Shown here in pieces: positions 31,525 through 59,764 of a DNA stretch of 64,000 bases. The position numbers and the translations under genes are program-made. Position 1 is the stretch's first letter. Every line of letters begins with the position of its first letter. The notes below the pieces were generated by a model. It was not told the DNA's origin. It saw only the letters and a list, made by a program, of their open reading frames with translations, and made no database searches. The DNA is from Chrysoperla carnea (taxonomy: Eukaryota; Arthropoda; Insecta; Neuroptera; Chrysopidae), in the NCBI RefSeq assembly GCF_905475395.1, contig NC_058339.1:16004001-16068000 (forward strand), given 5' to 3'.

Positions 31525-34500
31525 TTAGGCAAGAAAAAATTCGGGTCCAATAAAATCACCACATCTTGGAAAATCAGAGGGAGTTCGTACAAATTCAACT
31601 TGATTTCCAACTTGTAAAATCACATCAGCACCACGAGTCCAATCCATATTATGTTCTTCACGTAATATCCAATAACCTGTACAAAAAGTTCATAATTAAA
31701 TTGGGGATAACTATTACATAATCGTTTTAAATTTCTCGTCTCTAAAGGATATGGGGTAGATAATAAAAGGGTTTCCTGTCACTCTATAATTTGGAGCGCT
31801 ATTTGACTTAAACAGATAAAATTGTAGTCCATTCAACAATTATTGTTTTGTTTTTAAATCTTTCAAATGCGTGCAGGCTCTGATCATCACTAAGGGGGCT
31901 TTCGGAATCCAAAAAATTAATTTTGCTCTATCATATTCAAATTTTATTCAATTTTGATAAACCAAGTACGTAATCCTACTAAATTTGGGTCATACTTTCC
32001 AAATTTCTGATCAAAATTAACCTAGCTCTAATGAGTTTCAAGAATGTGGAGTCCTCGTCCCAGAATTAAGCTCATGAGTCATAGCTAGCGAAAAATTGAC
32101 ATCACAACTGAAAACAATGACCCAAAATTAGTGGGTTTCAAAAAAAATTCCAATAAGATCGGATCTAATTTGCCTGTGTTATCAAAAATATCGAATTTTT
32201 TAACTTTATGACGTCATCAGAATCCAAAAAATTTAATTTTGCTCTATCACATCCAAGTTTTGGCCAATTTTGATAAACCAAGTATGTAATTCTACTAAAT
32301 TTGGGTCATATTTTTCAAATTTCTGATCAAAATTAACCTAGCTCTAATAGGTTTCAAGAATGTGGATTCCTCGTCCTGGAATTCAGCATATAAGTGATAA
32401 ATAGCGAAAAATTGACATCACAGCTGAAAACAATGACCCAAAATTAGTGAGTTTCAAAAAAAATTCCAATAAGATCGGATCAAATTTGCATGTGTTATCA
32501 AAAAAAACGAAATTTTTAACTTTATGGCTTTATATAAATTAATGAGTATATAGTAACCGAGAAATACACGAATTTTAAGAAAAACTATTCAATATAGGGA
32601 ATATTAGAAATATGAAAAAATTAGAGGTATATTTTATAATGTTATCCAAGCCTAAATAATTTTAAATAATTGAAGCCGTATATTTAAAGATAAACCAAGC
32701 TGTTTATTTAATTGGATTGGATTTTACACCTCATATTTTCGTAATATATATTTCAATCACAATAAAAAAATAACATTATAAAAATATTTTATGTAAATTT
32801 TTTTCGTAATTTATGAGTTTATTTTTTGGCAAAACACGAAGTTTTAAAAAAAATGTTTTTTAATAAAAAATTCGACTGTAATTGCAAGCCGATTAAATTT
32901 TTTCACATCATTAAATGAATGCTAATGATAAACACTTTAACTTTCAATAATTTCAACATAGACAATCAATTTTTGCTATTATTGAACAAACATTCTTTCT
33001 ATATATGCAACTTCTATTACTAATTTGTAAAGATTTTGCATAAATGGTATCAATAAAAATAAAATACAAACACATTCCATAAAAATTGAGCCAACCTCTA
33101 TTTTTCTTGGTTTGAGCGTGTTCTGTCATTTGTAAAAGATGTTATCCTGAATACCTAATTTTATAACGGACTCCTGATAATAATTTTATAACGGACAATG
33201 ATTCTAATAATTAGTACGATTTAAAAATAATTAAAATTATTACCTGGACTGTCAGCTTTAAATCTTAATGCCACTACACCATATTTAGGTATCGTAATTG
33301 TATCCTTCCTGGATGGATTAATTAAATTGCGAGTAAATAGCATTCCTCGATGGTCTAGTTCTTTAATTTCCTCGAGACTAACCATTGTACTAAATTGTCT
33401 AGCACCAACTACCCAAAAACTGTACCCATGCATATGATAAATATGTCGATCAAGGTCTCCAGCTGAAAATGTTTAAAATAACAAGTGAAAATAAACTTAA
33501 GGTAGTTCCTCCGCGACCGTCCAGTCAAAAAGTTTTGGACTAATACTATCATTCAGTGCATTAACTGTGCTATGACTATTATACATATACCATATATTAT
33601 TTTCACAAGACTGTAGTTCCTCACTACTGTTTCTAGTATACATATAAGCACACACACTATGACATATGCCTTTAACATTAGTCTTCATATCTTTTCCACA
33701 AAAATCATCGCTAAAACGAGTTATTTATTTAAGTTTTTTATCGAAACTATATGGTAAATAATTTTTATTTTTATTTATATATTTTCTAAATATAGTATTC
33801 TACATTATATTAGTTTTTCATAGAGATGGTGGACGTCATTCATTGGTAAATAAATATAATATTTGTAAATTTGTGTATTTTTATACACTTCTCCCATGTA
33901 CACGTACAAATTGCGTCACTTTTAATTGCTAATATCTCATGTATGGCATGGTAAATCATCTTCTAATTTTAACAGCAAGTGTATTATGAATTAAATATTT
34001 TATATTCTGAGTTTTGAGAAATTCTTGGAATATCACTTTCGTGTAGGTACTACCTTAATTGAATGAAAGCTTTAAAATAACTAAAAGTTCTTTACCATGA
34101 TCAATAATTATCAGTTCAACTGTACTGCCTAAAGGTATTTGTTCAATATGAGTGCATTCACAATAATTTAAACCCAAACACTGTGATGGTAAATTTGATT
34201 GAGTACATTTTGACATCGAATCGGGATAAGCATTTTGTAGTACCAGCGGAGATGATGGGAATGTAAAACTAATATTGTTAATGTGCATTAATCCAATTCG
34301 TCCTCCTGGAAAACAAATATTAAAAAGTTAAATATTATTAAATTAACACTTCTTTAAATATTAATGAATACACTAGTTTACAAAATAATGATAGAGATAT
34401 TATTCTGAGATATATTTGTCCAACTTGATCCAATATTTGGATCGATTTTGGTCCGTATCTTAAAAACTATTCGCCCAGTCATCAAATGCACCCGATTTTT

Positions 34501-42651: not shown

Positions 42652-42660
42652 ATAGATATT
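42652..42660. repeat. Left 9-bp target-site duplication of the foldback element
   Basis: ATAGATATT immediately before the left terminus; the identical 9-mer follows the right terminus at 46896-46904. Confidence 0.85.
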
Positions 42661-45600
42661 AGCTCCGTATACTTAGCAGATAAAATTGTTATTTTTCACT
42701 CAAACTATTTCCATTCATTTGGGAATCGTTTGGGAGGATTTGGGAATATAATTTTAGAATTTGGGAATTATTAGTTTTCCTGTAATTAATGATTCTTTTT
42801 TCAGCGTATAGTTAGCAGGTAGGAAATTAAATCCACTTAATTTTTATGTTATTCGAAAGGAAATCATTTGGGAATTACGATAAACACGGTTTCAGAGTTT
42901 GGGAATGTATAATTAATTAATTACACCTATTTTTTAGTTAATTGATAGGTTATGTTAATTAACCGTACATTAATTGTTATATAGCAGTATGGCGCCAATA
43001 TTCAAATATTACTGAATAATTTATTTTATAATTTATGTAAATGTTAAGTTTTATTTTGCCTTAAAACTGTTCTTATTCAATTGGAAATCGTTTGGGAAGA
43101 TTTAGGAATATAATTTTATTTAGGACTGATTAGTTTTCATTTAATTAATTAGTTCTTCAAAGCGTATACTTAGAAGGTAAAAAATTAAATTTTCACCATT
43201 TTTACGTTATTTGATAATAATTTACATGGAGACTAATCTAATTAATTTGGGAATCACATTAAACACGGTTTCATCATTTGGGACACTAAAATTATTTAAT
43301 TAATTACATTTATTTTTTAGTTGATTTTTTGTGGTTATATTAATGGCGGTAATATTCAAATGTTACTTCATTTACAATAATTTTGTTTTTTTAATTTATA
43401 TAAATGTTAAGTTTTATTTTCCCTTAAAACTATTCTTATTCAATTGGGAATCGTTTGGGAAGATTTAGGAATATATTTTTATTATTTAGGACTGATTAGT
43501 TTTCATGTAATTAATTAGTTTTTCAAAGCGTATACTTAGAAGGTAAAAAATTAAATTTTCGCCATTTTTACTTTATTTGATAAGAGTTTACATGGAGACT
43601 AATCTAATTAATTTGGGAATCACATTAAACACGGTTTCATCATTTGGGACACTAAAATTATTTAATTAATCACATTTATTTTTTAGTTGGTTTTTTATGG
43701 TTATATGAATGGCGGCAATATTCAAATGTTACTTCATTGACAATAATTTTGTTTTTTTAATTTATGCAAATGTTAAGTTTTATTTTTCATTAAAACTATT
43801 CTTATTCAATTGGGAATCGTTTGGGAAGATTTAGGAATATAATTTTATTATTTAGGACTGATTAGTTTTCATGTAATTAATTAGTTTTTCAAAGCGTATA
43901 CTTAGAAGGTAAAAAATTAAATTTTCACCATTTTTACGTTATTTCATAATAATTTAGATGGACACTAATCTAATTAATTTGGGAATCATATTAATCACGG
44001 TTTCATCATTTGGGAAAGTATAATTAATTTATTAATTACATTTATTTTTTAGTTGATTTTTTGTGGTTATATTAATGGCGGCAATATTCAAATGTTACTT
44101 CATTGACAATAATTTTGTATTTTTAATTTATGTAAATGTTAAGCTTTATTTTTCATTAAAACTATTCTTATTCAGTTGGGAATCGTTTGGGAAGATTTAG
44201 GAATATAATTTTATTATTTAGGACTTGTTCGAAACATTTGCCGAAAACAGTATAATTAACGAAAAAACGGACTGAAAAGTTTTACCCAAAATAATTATAA
44301 TTGTTTCTACGACATCAAGACACTCTTCGAAAAATATTTTCCAATAAATCCAATGAAAGTGGTTTCTTTTTCCATAAAAACCATTTTTTGTTCAAATTGG
44401 AATGAAGAAACACGCAAAAAAATTAAAACTCTGTCTTAACTATTCGGTTATTTACAAAAAAAAAAAAAAAAGTGCTCGGCTAATGTTTGCAAGTTATGGA
44501 TCAGACTGAATTTTTCGAGTTTTACGTATATATCAAGTTAAAAACTCTATAAAATGCTCAAACCAACTCAACCAAATTTGTGAAATTATATAGTACCTCC
44601 TACGCTAGCTTGTACCTGTACCTACTATAAGAGAATAAATATTTTATTTACAATTTTATCAATACAAATGCAGTTTTTATTTCATGATCAATTTATTTAT
44701 CTTTATTAGAATAAACAATTAGACTATCAATAATTTCCCTTTCTATCCACACTTCACACTTCCTAATTAACACTTATTTTATTGAACGAATTATTAATCT
44801 TTAATGAAAATAAGAATTTATTTCAATAGAAAAATTTGAAAGTAGTTTCGCAAAAAGCATTAATCTGCACCTACATAAAAAATGATACAAATTGAATATT
44901 TTGACATTAATCAGTCCCAAATAATAAAATTCCAAAATCTGAATATTTTGACATTAATCACTCCCAAAACACTTCGAACAAACCTTCACAAACGATTCCT
45001 GATCTTCGAAAATTTCCCGATTAAATAAAAATAGTTTTAATGTCAAATAAACATTTACATAAATTAAAAAAAAAAATTATTGTAAATGAAGTAACATTTG
45101 AATATTGCCGCCATTCATATAACCATAAAAAATCAACTAAAAAATAAATGTAATTAATTAAATAATTTTAGTGTCCCAAATGATGAAACCGTGTTTGATG
45201 TAATTCCCAAATAAATAAGATTAGTCTCCATGTAAATTATTATCAAATAACGTAAAAATGGTGAAAATTTAATTTTTTACCTTCTAAGTATACGCTTTGA
45301 AAAACTAATTAATTACATGAAAACTAATCAGTCCTAAATAATAAAATTATATTCCTAAATCTTCCCAAACGATTCCCAATTGAATAAGAATAGTTTTAAT
45401 GAAAAATAAAGCTTAACATTTACATAAATTAAAAATACAAAATTATTGTCAATGAAGTAACATTTGAATATTGCCGCCATTAATATAACCACAAAAAAAT
45501 CAACTAAAAAATAAATGTAATTAATAAATTAATTATACTTTCCCAAATGATGAAACCGTGATTAATATGATTCCCAAATTAATTAGATTAGTCTCCATGT

Positions 45601-46895
45601 AAATTATTATCAAATAACGTAAAAATGGTGAAAATTTAATTTTTTACCTTCTAAGTATACGCTTTGAAAAACTAATTAATTACATGAAAACTAATCAGTC
45701 CTAAATAATAAAATTATATTCCTAAATCTTCCCAAACGATTCCCAATTGAATAAGAATAGTTTTAATGAAAAATAAAACTTAACATTTGCATAAATTAAA
45801 AAAACAAAATTATTGTCAATGAAGTAACATTTGAATATTGCCGCCATTCATATAACCATAAAAAACCAACTAAAAAATAAATGTGATTAATTAATTAATT
45901 TTAGTGTCCCAAATGATGAAACCGTGTTTAATGTGATTCCCAAATTAATTAGATTAGTCTCCATGTAAACTCTTATCAAATAAAGTAAAAATGGCGAAAA
46001 TTTAATTTTTTACCTTCTAAGTATACGCTTTGAAAAACTAATTAATTACATGAAAACTAATCAGTCCTAAATAATAAAAATATATTCCTAAATCTTCCCA
46101 AACGATTCCCAATTGAATAAGAATAGTTTTAAGGGAAAATAAAACTTAACATTTATATAAATTAAAAAAACAAAATTATTGTCAATGAAGTAACATTTGA
46201 ATATTGCCGCCATTAATATAACCACAAAAAATCAACTAAAAAATAAATGTAATTAATTAAATAATTTTAGTGTCCCAAATGATGAAACCGTGTTTAATGT
46301 GATTCCCAAATTAATTAGATTAGTCTCCATGTAAATTATTATCAAATAACGTAAAAATGGTGAAAATTTAATTTTTTACCTTCTAAGTATACGCTTTGAA
46401 GAACTAATTAATTAAATGAAAACTAATCAGTCCTAAATAAAATTATATTCCTAAATCTTCCCAAACGATTTCCAATTGAATAAGAACAGTTTTAAGGCAA
46501 AATAAAACTTAACATTTACATAAATTATAAAATAAATTATTCAGTAATATTTGAATATTGGCGCCATACTGCTATATAACAATTAATGTACGGTTAATTA
46601 ACATAACCTATCAATTAACTAAAAAATAGGTGTAATTAATTAATTATACATTCCCAAACTCTGAAACCGTGTTTATCGTAATTCCCAAATGATTTCCTTT
46701 CGAATAACATAAAAATTAAGTGGATTTAATTTCCTACCTGCTAACTATACGCTGAAAAAAGAATCATTAATTACAGGAAAACTAATAATTCCCAAATTCT
46801 AAAATTATATTCCCAAATCCTCCCAAACGATTCCCAAATGAATGGAAATAGTTTGAGTGAAAAATAACAATTTTATCTGCTAAGTATACGGAGCT
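42661..46895. mobile_element. 4.2-kb Foldback/MULE-like element with tandem-repeat arms
   Basis: The two ends are exact inverted copies beginning AGCTCCGTATACTTAGCAGA, flanked by a perfect 9-bp duplication ATAGATATT. The left arm (42661 to about 44230) and right arm (about 44976-46895) are built of ~360-368-bp tandem units, each with GGGAATCGTTTGGGA, AAGCGTATACTTAGAAGGTA, AACACGGTTTCATCATTTGG and ATGGCGGCAATATTCAAATG. The outermost unit of each arm is diverged from the inner ones, yet matches its mirror partner almost perfectly. The centre (about 750 bp) is AT-rich and non-coding; no transposase is present. Long arms of tandem repeats and 9-bp duplications are typical of Drosophila Foldback (FB) elements and MULE relatives, so mobilisation in trans is likely. 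Superfamily membership is inferred from structure, not homology. Confidence 0.88.
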
Positions 46896-46904
46896 ATAGA
46901 TATT
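46896..46904. repeat. Right 9-bp target-site duplication of the foldback element
   Basis: ATAGATATT directly after the right terminus GTATACGGAGCT, identical to 42652-42660. Confidence 0.85.
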
Positions 46905-46973: not shown

Positions 46974-47136
46974 TAAAATCTGAAAAGAAACAAATAAGTC
47001 GAGTAGTTTACATAGCGGACTTTAACATTCGGGGCCCATTATTGGGAAGATTTGGGTCGATCTAGATTTTAATGAGTCCCGACTGTTAAAGTCGTTATGT
47101 AAACTACTGGACTTGTTTCTTTCTTTTCAGATTTTA
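46974..47136. mobile_element. Palindromic mariner-like MITE (163 bp)
   Basis: TAAAATCTGAAAAGAAAC at the left pairs with TTTCTTTTCAGATTTTA at the right. The arms continue with AGTAGTTTACATAGCGGACT against GTCGTTATGTAAACTACT. TA at both edges fits a Tc1/mariner-type target duplication. A partial relative occurs at about 26250-26320 (CTGAAAAGAAAG followed by AGTAGTTTATATAGCGATTT). Confidence 0.7.
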
Positions 47137-57625: not shown

Positions 57626-59764
57626 TTAGTTTATTAAAAAATCTAAATTTGCGTTTAAGAATAATATTTTGGAGATTTTTGAACCACTAAGTCTATTTCG
57701 GTTTTCATGTAGTATCCCACTATTTTTCGAAAAGATACGTTCATGTGGTAAAGATGTTGGAATAACACAAAGTCGATTTTTAACTAATGTTATAAGTTTT
57801 GGATAAATATTTTTTCGTTGCTGCCACCAAATTAATGGATTTTCACTTCTTGGAAGAAGCGGCTCTTGTAAATATTTATCTAATTCAAGAACGGCGTCAT
57901 CTCGTGGATTCCTATTTTGGATTACTTGCTTAGTTTGTATGTCGAATTGATTCCATAAACTATCACTTTCTGTTTTTACATTCACATGATGAAACAAACT
58001 ATCTTTTGAACCGATTCTTTCTTCCAAAGAAGTCATATAATTCAAAACAGATTGTCTAGCTTTTTCGAAATGATTATCATCATGAAATCCAAAGTTCTTA
58101 AATCGTGGATCTAAAAGTGTTGCTTCCGCTATTATCATACTTTCTCCTATATAATTCAATTTTGTTTCTACTTGTTCGATGATTTTGTTTATAAACTTTA
58201 AATACTCATGAGATTCGACTGTTTCATTTAGAATATTTTCATTTTTGAATTCATAACACTTTCTAAGTAATAAATCACATAAAAAAATCAACTTTGATAT
58301 TGTAACTGATTTTTCCGCGCTTATTTCTACAGTTATTTTCTCGAAGAATTTTAATACTTCACAAACGTTTTCTAGTAAAAACCAATCAATTTCTGTTAGA
58401 TGGGTGTCCGTTAAAATGGAAATAATGGATTCTTTAATGCTTAAAATTCTGGTAAACATTTCATAAGTGGAAATCCAATACATTTTCACATCATTAACAA
58501 CTTTCAATTGAATTGGAACTCCCATTTGTTTTTGAATACTTTCTAGATTTTCCGCAGCTTGTGTATTACTATTGAAATGTTCTACAATAAGTTTAATCTT
58601 TGAATGTAAGGTCTTTATTTCTAAAAGTGCCGATTGAACTATTGCATTAAGTGAATGACCAAAACATGGAATATGATTCCATCCGCACATTTCCACCGCA
58701 GCAGATATATTTTTTGTATTATCAGTAACCACTGCTGAAATCTTTTCATTTATGTTCCATTCACTAGAAATACGTTTTATTTCACCGGATATATCATCAA
58801 TGCTGTGCTCTTCGTTATATCTAAAACAATCTAATAAATAACTTTTTAGCGTAAAATTTTCATCCAAAAAATGTACGGTAATAGCTTGGAAATGATCGTT
58901 GTTTATAGATGTCCAACTATCCGTTGTAATTGTTACACCAGAATTACTTGTTGCTCTCAATTCTTCATGAATTTGGTTTGAAATTTTCAAATGTAACTCT
59001 GTTAATAACGTATTCAAAGCTTTACGGTCGGGAATTGTATATTGAGGATTCAACAATGATATCAGTTTTCGAAATTCTACATTTTCAATCATATCAAAAG
59101 GATGATAATTTTTAACAATCATCTTTAATAACTGCATATCAATCGCTTTGTTTCGAATTAAACTTATTTTAATAGGTTTCAACTTCTTTTGCGGTGGTGG
59201 TGAATCTTGGGAAATGGATGGTTTAATATCTAAAGGATCTTCATCAAATGAATTTTCTTCATTTGTGGCGATATTATCCTCATTCATTGAAAATGTTTTT
59301 TCGATTTGTATACTCAAGTGTTTTTTCTTATAATGCCTAATTAAGTTTGTGGTTGATTTATTCTTTATGGAAATTTCTTTGCCACATTGATTACATCTTG
59401 CTCGTGAATCACTTAAAAGAGTAAAACGTTTCCATGCTGCGCTTCTTTTCATTTTCATCGATACTTCTGGCGTTGATTCTATTTGCGATGTTTCTGGTAT
59501 ATAATTATCGTAAGCATAGAACGTATTTACGTTATCTGATTCATCTAAGTCTTCTTCATTTTCCTCTTTTTTGCACACACTTACTGCGGGAACACTTTTT
59601 TGTACTTTAACGATATTGTGTTTATTTTTAACATGTCTGAGTAAGTTAGTGGTTGCTTTGTTCTTTGTTGAAAGTTCGTTACCACATATATCACATTTTA
59701 CTTTTGTTTCTGATATAACAGTAAAAAGATTCCAAATTGTGCTTTTTTTCTTTACAGAACTCAT
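57626..59764 (-). CDS. hAT-family transposase-like protein with two BED zinc fingers
   Basis: A single uninterrupted ORF of 712 aa. Two BED-type fingers occur at about 10-50 (CDIC, then HVKNKH) and 110-150 (CNQC, then HYKKKH). The RNase-H-like core shows TTDSW with Asp282, VVTDN with Asp348, and CFGHSLN at 367-373. The C-terminal hAT dimerisation region has WWQQRKNIYPKL, PHERIFSKNSG (Glu675) and a FLNANLDF end. Asp282, Asp348 and Glu675 fit the DDE triad of hAT enzymes. It could be the transposase of a recent autonomous element or a domesticated ZBED-like gene. I could not find paired termini with an 8-bp duplication around it. The lack of introns favours a transposon origin, and the intact frame favours recent activity or selection. 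It lies on the opposite strand from PRP16 and the SR-protein gene. Confidence 0.92.
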   Translation of the reverse strand: MSSVKKKSTIWNLFTVISETKVKCDICGNELSTKNKATTNLLRHVKNKHNIVKVQKSVPAVSVCKKEENEEDLDESDNVNTFYAYDNYIPETSQIESTPEVSMKMKRSAAWKRFTLLSDSRARCNQCGKEISIKNKSTTNLIRHYKKKHLSIQIEKTFSMNEDNIATNEENSFDEDPLDIKPSISQDSPPPQKKLKPIKISLIRNKAIDMQLLKMIVKNYHPFDMIENVEFRKLISLLNPQYTIPDRKALNTLLTELHLKISNQIHEELRATSNSGVTITTDSWTSINNDHFQAITVHFLDENFTLKSYLLDCFRYNEEHSIDDISGEIKRISSEWNINEKISAVVTDNTKNISAAVEMCGWNHIPCFGHSLNAIVQSALLEIKTLHSKIKLIVEHFNSNTQAAENLESIQKQMGVPIQLKVVNDVKMYWISTYEMFTRILSIKESIISILTDTHLTEIDWFLLENVCEVLKFFEKITVEISAEKSVTISKLIFLCDLLLRKCYEFKNENILNETVESHEYLKFINKIIEQVETKLNYIGESMIIAEATLLDPRFKNFGFHDDNHFEKARQSVLNYMTSLEERIGSKDSLFHHVNVKTESDSLWNQFDIQTKQVIQNRNPRDDAVLELDKYLQEPLLPRSENPLIWWQQRKNIYPKLITLVKNRLCVIPTSLPHERIFSKNSGILHENRNRLSGSKISKILFLNANLDFLIN

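Follow-up and report, generated by a model that had tools for sequence, protein, structure and literature searches.

The foldback element and its arms

The stretch of DNA analysed here (the window, 64,000 nucleotides of the lacewing Chrysoperla carnea) contains at 42661-46895 a foldback transposon of 4,235 bp with 24% G+C, which together with both of its target duplications spans 42652-46904. The explanation that best accounts for our observations as a whole, and which we consider highly probable, is that this is a non-autonomous foldback DNA transposon belonging to a recently mobile C. carnea family, whose arms are arrays of a short motif and whose members also form composite units with cargo. 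Both ends of the element carry the terminus AGCTCCGTATAC and are flanked by the same nine bases, ATAGATATT, and a repeat search found the outer 1,403 nt of the two arms (42660-44062 and 45494-46896) to be 100% reverse complements of each other. Direct repeats within the arms are spaced 354-379 bp apart, mostly 362-367 bp, and Tandem Repeats Finder reports a period of 366 with 94% matches over 43024-44225 and 45050-46532. A preliminary description of this DNA had proposed an insect foldback element with exact inverted termini, arms of roughly 365-bp repeats, a perfect 9-bp target duplication and a non-coding centre of about 750 bp; all of this held up, the host being C. carnea and the centre measuring about 770 bp. 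The element had also been called non-autonomous, and no open reading frame (ORF) of at least 100 amino acids (aa) lies within it. Its parts, in window coordinates, are as follows.

42652..42660, no strand: left 9-bp target site duplication ATAGATATT, from comparison of the flanks
42661..43023, plus strand: left terminal unit, starting AGCTCCGTATACTTAGCAG; the other two-ended copies have a terminal unit 94-100% identical to it
42666..43906, plus strand: end motif, present five times in the left arm (starts at 42666, 42805, 43163, 43529 and 43895); putative transposase-binding sites
43116-43481, 43482-43847 and 43848-44213, plus strand: three internal units of about 366 bp in the left arm, from the repeat search
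44226..44995, no strand: non-coding centre of about 770 bp, also found in several other copies, often inverted or split
44995-45341 (partial), 45342-45708, 45709-46074 and 46075-46440, minus strand: four inverted internal units of the right arm
45283..46890, minus strand: end motif, present six times in the right arm (starts at 46890, 46751, 46393, 46027, 45661 and 45294)
46533..46895, minus strand: right terminal unit, whose end reads AGCTCCGTATAC on this strand
46896..46904, no strand: right 9-bp target site duplication ATAGATATT, from comparison of the flanks

Each arm thus consists of a terminal unit of about 363 bp, a joint of about 92 bp and a series of internal units of about 366 bp. 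The arms are of unequal length, the left one having the terminal and three internal units and the right one the terminal and four, the innermost of which is partial. The motif CGTATA[C/G]TTAG is present 11 times in the element, once in every unit (the partial innermost one included) and once at the very end of each arm, and every copy points the same way with respect to its arm's end; with up to one mismatch allowed, it has no copy in the remainder of the window.

A recently mobile family

The preliminary description had expected further copies in the genome to share these termini and to be flanked by 9-bp duplications. With up to two mismatches the end sequence occurs 136 times in the 559-Mb C. 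carnea genome, where the same pattern read backwards occurs 0 times, and 100 of these positions were listed individually (loci are given below as L numbers, and chromosomal positions as C numbers). The copies have their termini in common, and 16 of the 24 two-ended units, judged by their outer ends, have perfect 9-bp duplications; of the others, one matches at 8 and one at 7 of the 9 bases, and six match at 1-5. When left and right flanks of different units were paired crosswise, none of the 552 combinations gave a perfect match. The number of repeat units varies between copies, and the arms are long, inverted and built of tandem repeats, so that repeat-built inverted arms, dispersed copies, shared termini and target duplications, the characteristics of the foldback class, are all present.

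Some copies are nearly identical. L026 and L028 agree at 99.95% over 3,697 bp and L012 and L013 at 99.85% over 2,044 bp, in each case with different duplications, and the window copy agrees with L035, which is at a different site, at 99.3% over 4,237 aligned positions. Because near-identical copies are at different sites with different duplications, the family is recently mobile. No empty paralogue of the window copy's own flanks was found among the 40 of 2053 candidates scored in the same genome. Within what we regard as a new foldback family the window copy is unremarkable; what merits following up is the repeated enclosing of zinc-finger genes by other members.

A separate arrangement of the family is seen at C5:63.082-63.111 Mb (L056, L061, L064 and L065), where five foldback ends stand in tandem at a spacing of about 251 bp and a 520-aa ankyrin-repeat ORF lies between foldback arms. 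Another foldback pair, at a distance of 19 kb, has the same right flank as this region, which suggests local duplication.

Large units enclosing zinc-finger genes

Perfect 9-bp duplications bound the outer ends of six large units, which measure 7.8-11.6 kb. C2H2 zinc-finger ORFs of 421-686 aa lie inside five of the six. These cargo ORFs are frames from ATG to stop, in which zinc fingers were recognised by a strict pattern and by Pfam profiles; by the strict pattern there are 9-19 fingers per frame.

C6:13085432-13093205: 645-aa zinc-finger ORF
C1:99418709-99426638: 686-aa zinc-finger ORF; duplication ATAATATGG
C1:102120424-102129967: 593-aa zinc-finger ORF; duplication CACCGGGCC on both sides
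C1:35203999-35215587: 421-aa zinc-finger ORF; outer duplication CTTATTAAC
C5:64886180-64895910: 480-aa and 433-aa zinc-finger ORFs
C5:13968202-13976150 (L022, L062), 7.9 kb: perfect 9-bp duplication AACAATTAC; no ORF of at least 100 aa in the part up to C5:13974000, which is all but the last 2.1 kb

DNA related to the cargo was found elsewhere for at least three of the units. The DNA downstream in the C6:13.09 Mb cargo has matches of 94-97% at five other places and a part of it matches at 98% in a sixth, the C1:102.1 Mb cargo has matches of 95-98% on C5, and the C1:99.4 Mb cargo is described below. Like Pack-TIR elements, then, the five units have a host gene between their ends and an outer duplication, and at least three of the five have a related copy elsewhere.

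The cargo of C1:99418709-99426638 has colinear matches of 97-100% within C5:66192238-66198786, namely 66192238-66192698 (100%), 66193269-66194430 (98%), 66195049-66197179 (97%) and 66197915-66198786 (100%). The left junction is common to both places, the foldback end GGAGCT being followed by CAATAAAAGTGG, and about 860 bp between this junction and the colinear stretch are present on C1 and absent on C5. At the right junction, all 261 of the C5 bases compared, from cargo and foldback arm, equal those on C1. Farther to the right the likeness extends to ...TTTTATCTGCT and then stops on C5 at the foldback end; the C1 copy has an intact right end with its duplication. The simplest reading of these sequences is that the foldback-gene-foldback unit moved as one between C1 and C5, and the foldback family seems to have carried at least one zinc-finger gene between chromosomes.

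A second composite, at C1:35.2 Mb, has about 7 kb with the 421-aa ORF between two complete foldbacks of 2,282 and 2,236 bp. Its outer flanks are identical, and its inner flanks are unlike each other and unlike the outer ones. An inversion between two foldbacks was considered as the origin of this structure and rejected, the inner flanks not being reverse complements of the outer. The left foldback is also found alone and inverted at C5:65.09 Mb (L014), 98% identical and with a 9-bp duplication of its own, and the cargo gene belongs to the same subfamily as the cargo at C6:13.09 Mb.

Foldback ends upstream of zinc-finger genes

Among the 100 listed foldback ends, 11 are upstream of a zinc-finger match by 1 kb or less, and none falls in the downstream class. 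Counted to the match itself, the distance is no greater than 371 bp for ten of the 11 and 861 bp for the other. Control shifts of the positions (56 shifts of 6-60 kb) gave an upstream mean of 0.36 with a maximum of 3 and a downstream mean of 0.61 with a maximum of 6. The query for these matches was the cargo of one foldback unit, which is a source of bias, and 150 of 4152 candidates were scored; 149 rows were used, the one left out being a second piece of the C4:29.956 Mb gene. In four upstream cases the match is closely related to the query (89-91%), and in the other seven it is distantly related (47-53%). By the same search, two of the listed zinc-finger matches fall within the six large units, where 0.0145 would be expected by chance, one of the two being the query gene itself.

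The point at which foldback and gene meet differs among related zinc-finger genes, as between L033 and L040 and between L034 and L020. All four of the two-ended foldbacks that have a zinc-finger ORF just outside lack a 9-bp duplication of their own, and 11 of the 14 others have one (P 0.011, with the classes assigned by hand).

Proposed movement of the elements and alternative explanations

A transposase supplied from elsewhere would most likely recognise the end motif AGCTCCGTATA[C/G]TTAGCAG, and with this motif in every unit of about 366 bp each arm would be an array of putative binding sites. The enzyme would cut at the outer ends and insert the element with a 9-bp stagger, which corresponds to the duplications observed, and the gain or loss of repeat units would change the length of the arms. 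Where two copies flank host DNA, their outer ends could serve as the two termini of a single composite unit, and the DNA between them, repeatedly C2H2 zinc-finger genes, would become cargo of the unit as it moves. A broader possibility is that the FB/MULE-like foldbacks of green lacewings are a vehicle for transcription-factor genes, with composites transposing whole between chromosomes and helping to build and scatter an expanded C2H2 zinc-finger repertoire, and with arms that become new 5′ flanks of the genes. We put this forward tentatively, as a proposal whose chances fall just short of even.

Several observations weigh against this account. The cargoes of the five units mostly differ, a perfect duplication is absent in 8 of the 24 two-ended units, and several of the two-unit composites were recognised only after matching flanks had been noticed. 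No transposase carrying these foldback ends was found by the searches described below. The C1:99.4 Mb zinc-finger gene may be broken, because further finger-coding frames follow the 686-aa ORF. Between C1:99.4 Mb and C5:66.19 Mb, the gaps in the alignment represent insertions on C5 or losses on C1, the C5 copy is without the last ~14 bases of its right foldback end, and the left foldback is longer in the C5 counterpart; the direction and the mechanism of the transfer are therefore not proven. Gap repair or template switching could also have brought the cargo into a foldback that was already there.

This last possibility is a credible one in general form, although we would place it somewhat below an even chance. 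Zinc-finger DNA would have been copied into ordinary foldbacks already inserted, through gap repair or through replication template switching between the repetitive arms, so that the whole unit never jumped and the outer duplication dates from the insertion of the empty foldback. Gap filling is what Tan et al. infer for most single-copy animal Pack-TIRs, and for multicopy ones they infer fork switching before transposition (PMC8277862). The variety of cargo among most of the units is consistent with such capture in place, as are the truncated foldback pieces that often adjoin cargo, for example in L021 and L020. Against it, both of the foldback/cargo junctions are common to C1:99.4 Mb and C5:66.19 Mb, and each of the two foldbacks at C1:35.2 Mb is complete, its intact inner end included, and no flanks but the outer ones match.

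We think it rather unlikely that there is no special link to zinc-finger genes, the transposase simply preferring promoter-proximal DNA in a genome rich in such genes. Plant Mutator elements favour promoter-proximal insertion. A BTB/BACK/PHR gene (L026) and an ORF with a ZAD domain (L037) also have a copy of the lacewing family upstream, and the differing junction points in related zinc-finger genes speak for separate events of insertion or rearrangement. However, the excess of listed ends upstream of zinc-finger matches over the control mean, with none in the downstream class, weighs against this explanation, and the missing duplications at the zinc-finger-adjacent foldbacks, with the classification made by hand, fit rearranged composites better than simple insertion.

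It is improbable that the foldback is of the P type (Galileo-like) or the hAT type instead of the FB/MULE type. Long arms built of repeats arise in unrelated superfamilies, and Galileo is a member of the P superfamily with FB-like arms (PMC3688188, PMC3169594). The lacewing termini, however, have AGCTC in common with the Drosophila element FB4. Target duplications are 7 or 8 bp for Galileo and hAT elements, 7 bp being the length for Galileo and the P superfamily, and those of the lacewing family are 9 bp. Finally, an origin of the palindrome in misassembly or in a local inverted duplication, with no mobile element involved, deserves almost no weight: the 100% identity of the outer 1,403 nt is what a duplicated haplotype fold could give, but an artefact is unlikely because the published assembly inChrCarn1 was built from PacBio HiFi reads (PMC10116181) and is ruled out by the copies in unrelated flanks, and the number of ends genome-wide, the perfect duplications at unrelated sites, the unique centre and the unequal arms argue in the same direction.

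Search for a transposase

Because the window copy has no ORF of at least 100 aa and the searches turned up no transposase with these ends, the element is probably non-autonomous and mobilised in trans. The preliminary description had suggested looking for full-length relatives that encode a MULE transposase. The MULE profile PF10551 matched 14 places in the genome, with all 35 of its candidates scored, and the foldback arms were absent from every 3.2-kb locus around them, although a diverged transposase would escape this search and the interiors of several large units were only partly read. A comparison of arm and centre with the PF10551 loci by blast gave matches at chance level, the best E value among the matches listed being 0.017. 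The profile PF21056 matched two places.

Of the PF10551 places, eleven lie in C1:138.28-139.40 Mb among bacterial-looking frames (Transposase_mut, Y1_Tnp, IS66, RelA_SpoT) and were rejected. Two others, at C1:139763598 (139.76 Mb, L042) and C5:73200257 (73.20 Mb, L043), belong to a MULE with tandem repeats of about 33 bp at its ends and 9-bp duplications, TAAATTAAA and GATATTATA. L042 has an open transposase frame of 736 aa with FAR1, ZSWIM/RNaseH-like and MULE profiles, the L043 frame has a stop, and L042 had no match at E 0.1 among solved structures. This MULE resembles the foldback family in its tandem-repeat ends and its 9-bp duplications but differs from it in its termini, GGATGTGGC as against AGCTCCGTA for the foldback, and was rejected on that ground. 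Kinship of the two by the longest word common to the foldback end motif and the L042 repeats, GCGTATAC (8 bp), was likewise set aside, such a word being matched in 592 of 5000 shuffles, which is not significant. At the remaining place, L053 (C5:22.80 Mb), the two flanking ORFs had no Pfam match at 1e-8.

The region C1:138.28-139.40 Mb (L044-L052, L054 and L055), on chromosome 1, is bacterial-looking DNA in its own right, with transposases of the IS256 type, IS200 and IS66, RelA/SpoT and ankyrin repeats, and could be an integrated or mis-scaffolded endosymbiont. Rickettsial symbionts are frequent in green lacewings (PMC5557424).

Relation to known foldback systems

Target duplications of Mutator elements (MULEs) are 8-11 bp long and usually 9, and the lacewing units, at 9 bp, agree with this. 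A 9-bp duplication is also given as the MULE type in the description of Tm1 (PMC3169594). The Drosophila elements FB and FB4 have, like the lacewing family, long arms of tandem repeats. FB4 has 9-10 bp duplications and arms of about 700 bp and is moved by an unknown transposase (PMC8277862). Its end is quoted as 5'-AGCTCAAAGAAGCTGGGGTC (PMC9682801); the outermost five bases, AGCTC, are identical in the lacewing foldback, whereas the later bases of the 20 quoted differ. The lacewing units differ from FB and FB4 in their length of about 366 bp, and no NOF-like ORF was seen in the lacewing, though no search aimed at NOF was made.

Tm1 of root-knot nematodes is a Mutator/Foldback element with a Phantom-like transposase; among its known copies is one with a putative transposase. 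Like the lacewing family it is flanked by 9-bp duplications, has composite, internally repeated termini that vary in length, occurs in many copies that are non-autonomous and carries host-like cargo (a histone hairpin and Cg-1), but unlike it Tm1 has arms of ~14-bp repeats and different termini (PMC3169594). Tetris of Drosophila virilis, likened to the lacewing family by its description, is an apparently non-autonomous foldback with tandem repeats within its terminal repeats, the unit being about 220 bp as against 366 bp in the lacewing (PMC4079207). The lacewing family probably works like FB4, Tm1 and Tetris, and its placement in FB proper or among the MULEs rests on the duplications and ends. 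The FB/MULE-like assignment made in the preliminary description is supported by the 9-bp duplications, which are found genome-wide, and the outermost AGCTC is that of FB4; a MULE transposase with these ends did not appear at the PF10551 places. The family is plausibly an undescribed one.

DNA transposons are well known to capture genes in plants; for animals such capture is poorly documented. One survey reports no Pack-TIR among insect reference genomes, nor any Pack-MULE among the 100 animal reference genomes that it covered, and gives one case of FB4 gene capture, in fly populations (PMC8277862). In that case, Ssk-FB4 (Pack-TIR / Pack-MULE), a host gene lies inside FB4 and each site has a distinct 9-10 bp duplication, indicating recurrent transposition of a gene-carrying foldback (PMC8277862). 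Ssk-FB4 concerns one gene and one family in fly populations, whereas a single reference genome of the lacewing has five units carrying zinc-finger ORFs. Gene capture by FB4 is therefore already published, and the lacewing family is an addition to that kind, unusually rich in host-gene cargo. Among the open-licence titles and openings of abstracts listed, we found no paper on a lacewing foldback or on the capture of zinc-finger genes by foldbacks. With a recently mobile family in a reference-quality lacewing genome, one can test whether composites of this kind carry entire genes from one chromosome to another and whether such movement contributes to lineage-specific zinc-finger expansions, and the near-identical copies offer a dated set for tracing the unknown transposase of FB-type elements.

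Other features of the window

In the right flank of the foldback, and outside it, a palindromic repeat of about 130 bp (about 46974-47136) has dozens of counterparts of 85-90% similarity across the genome. A 316-bp unit is tandemly duplicated at 31905-32526 with 90% matches. On the minus strand at 57632-59764 there is an open frame of 711 aa that codes for a pair of BED zinc fingers and for a hAT C-terminal dimerisation domain, apparently an uninterrupted hAT-type transposase-like gene.

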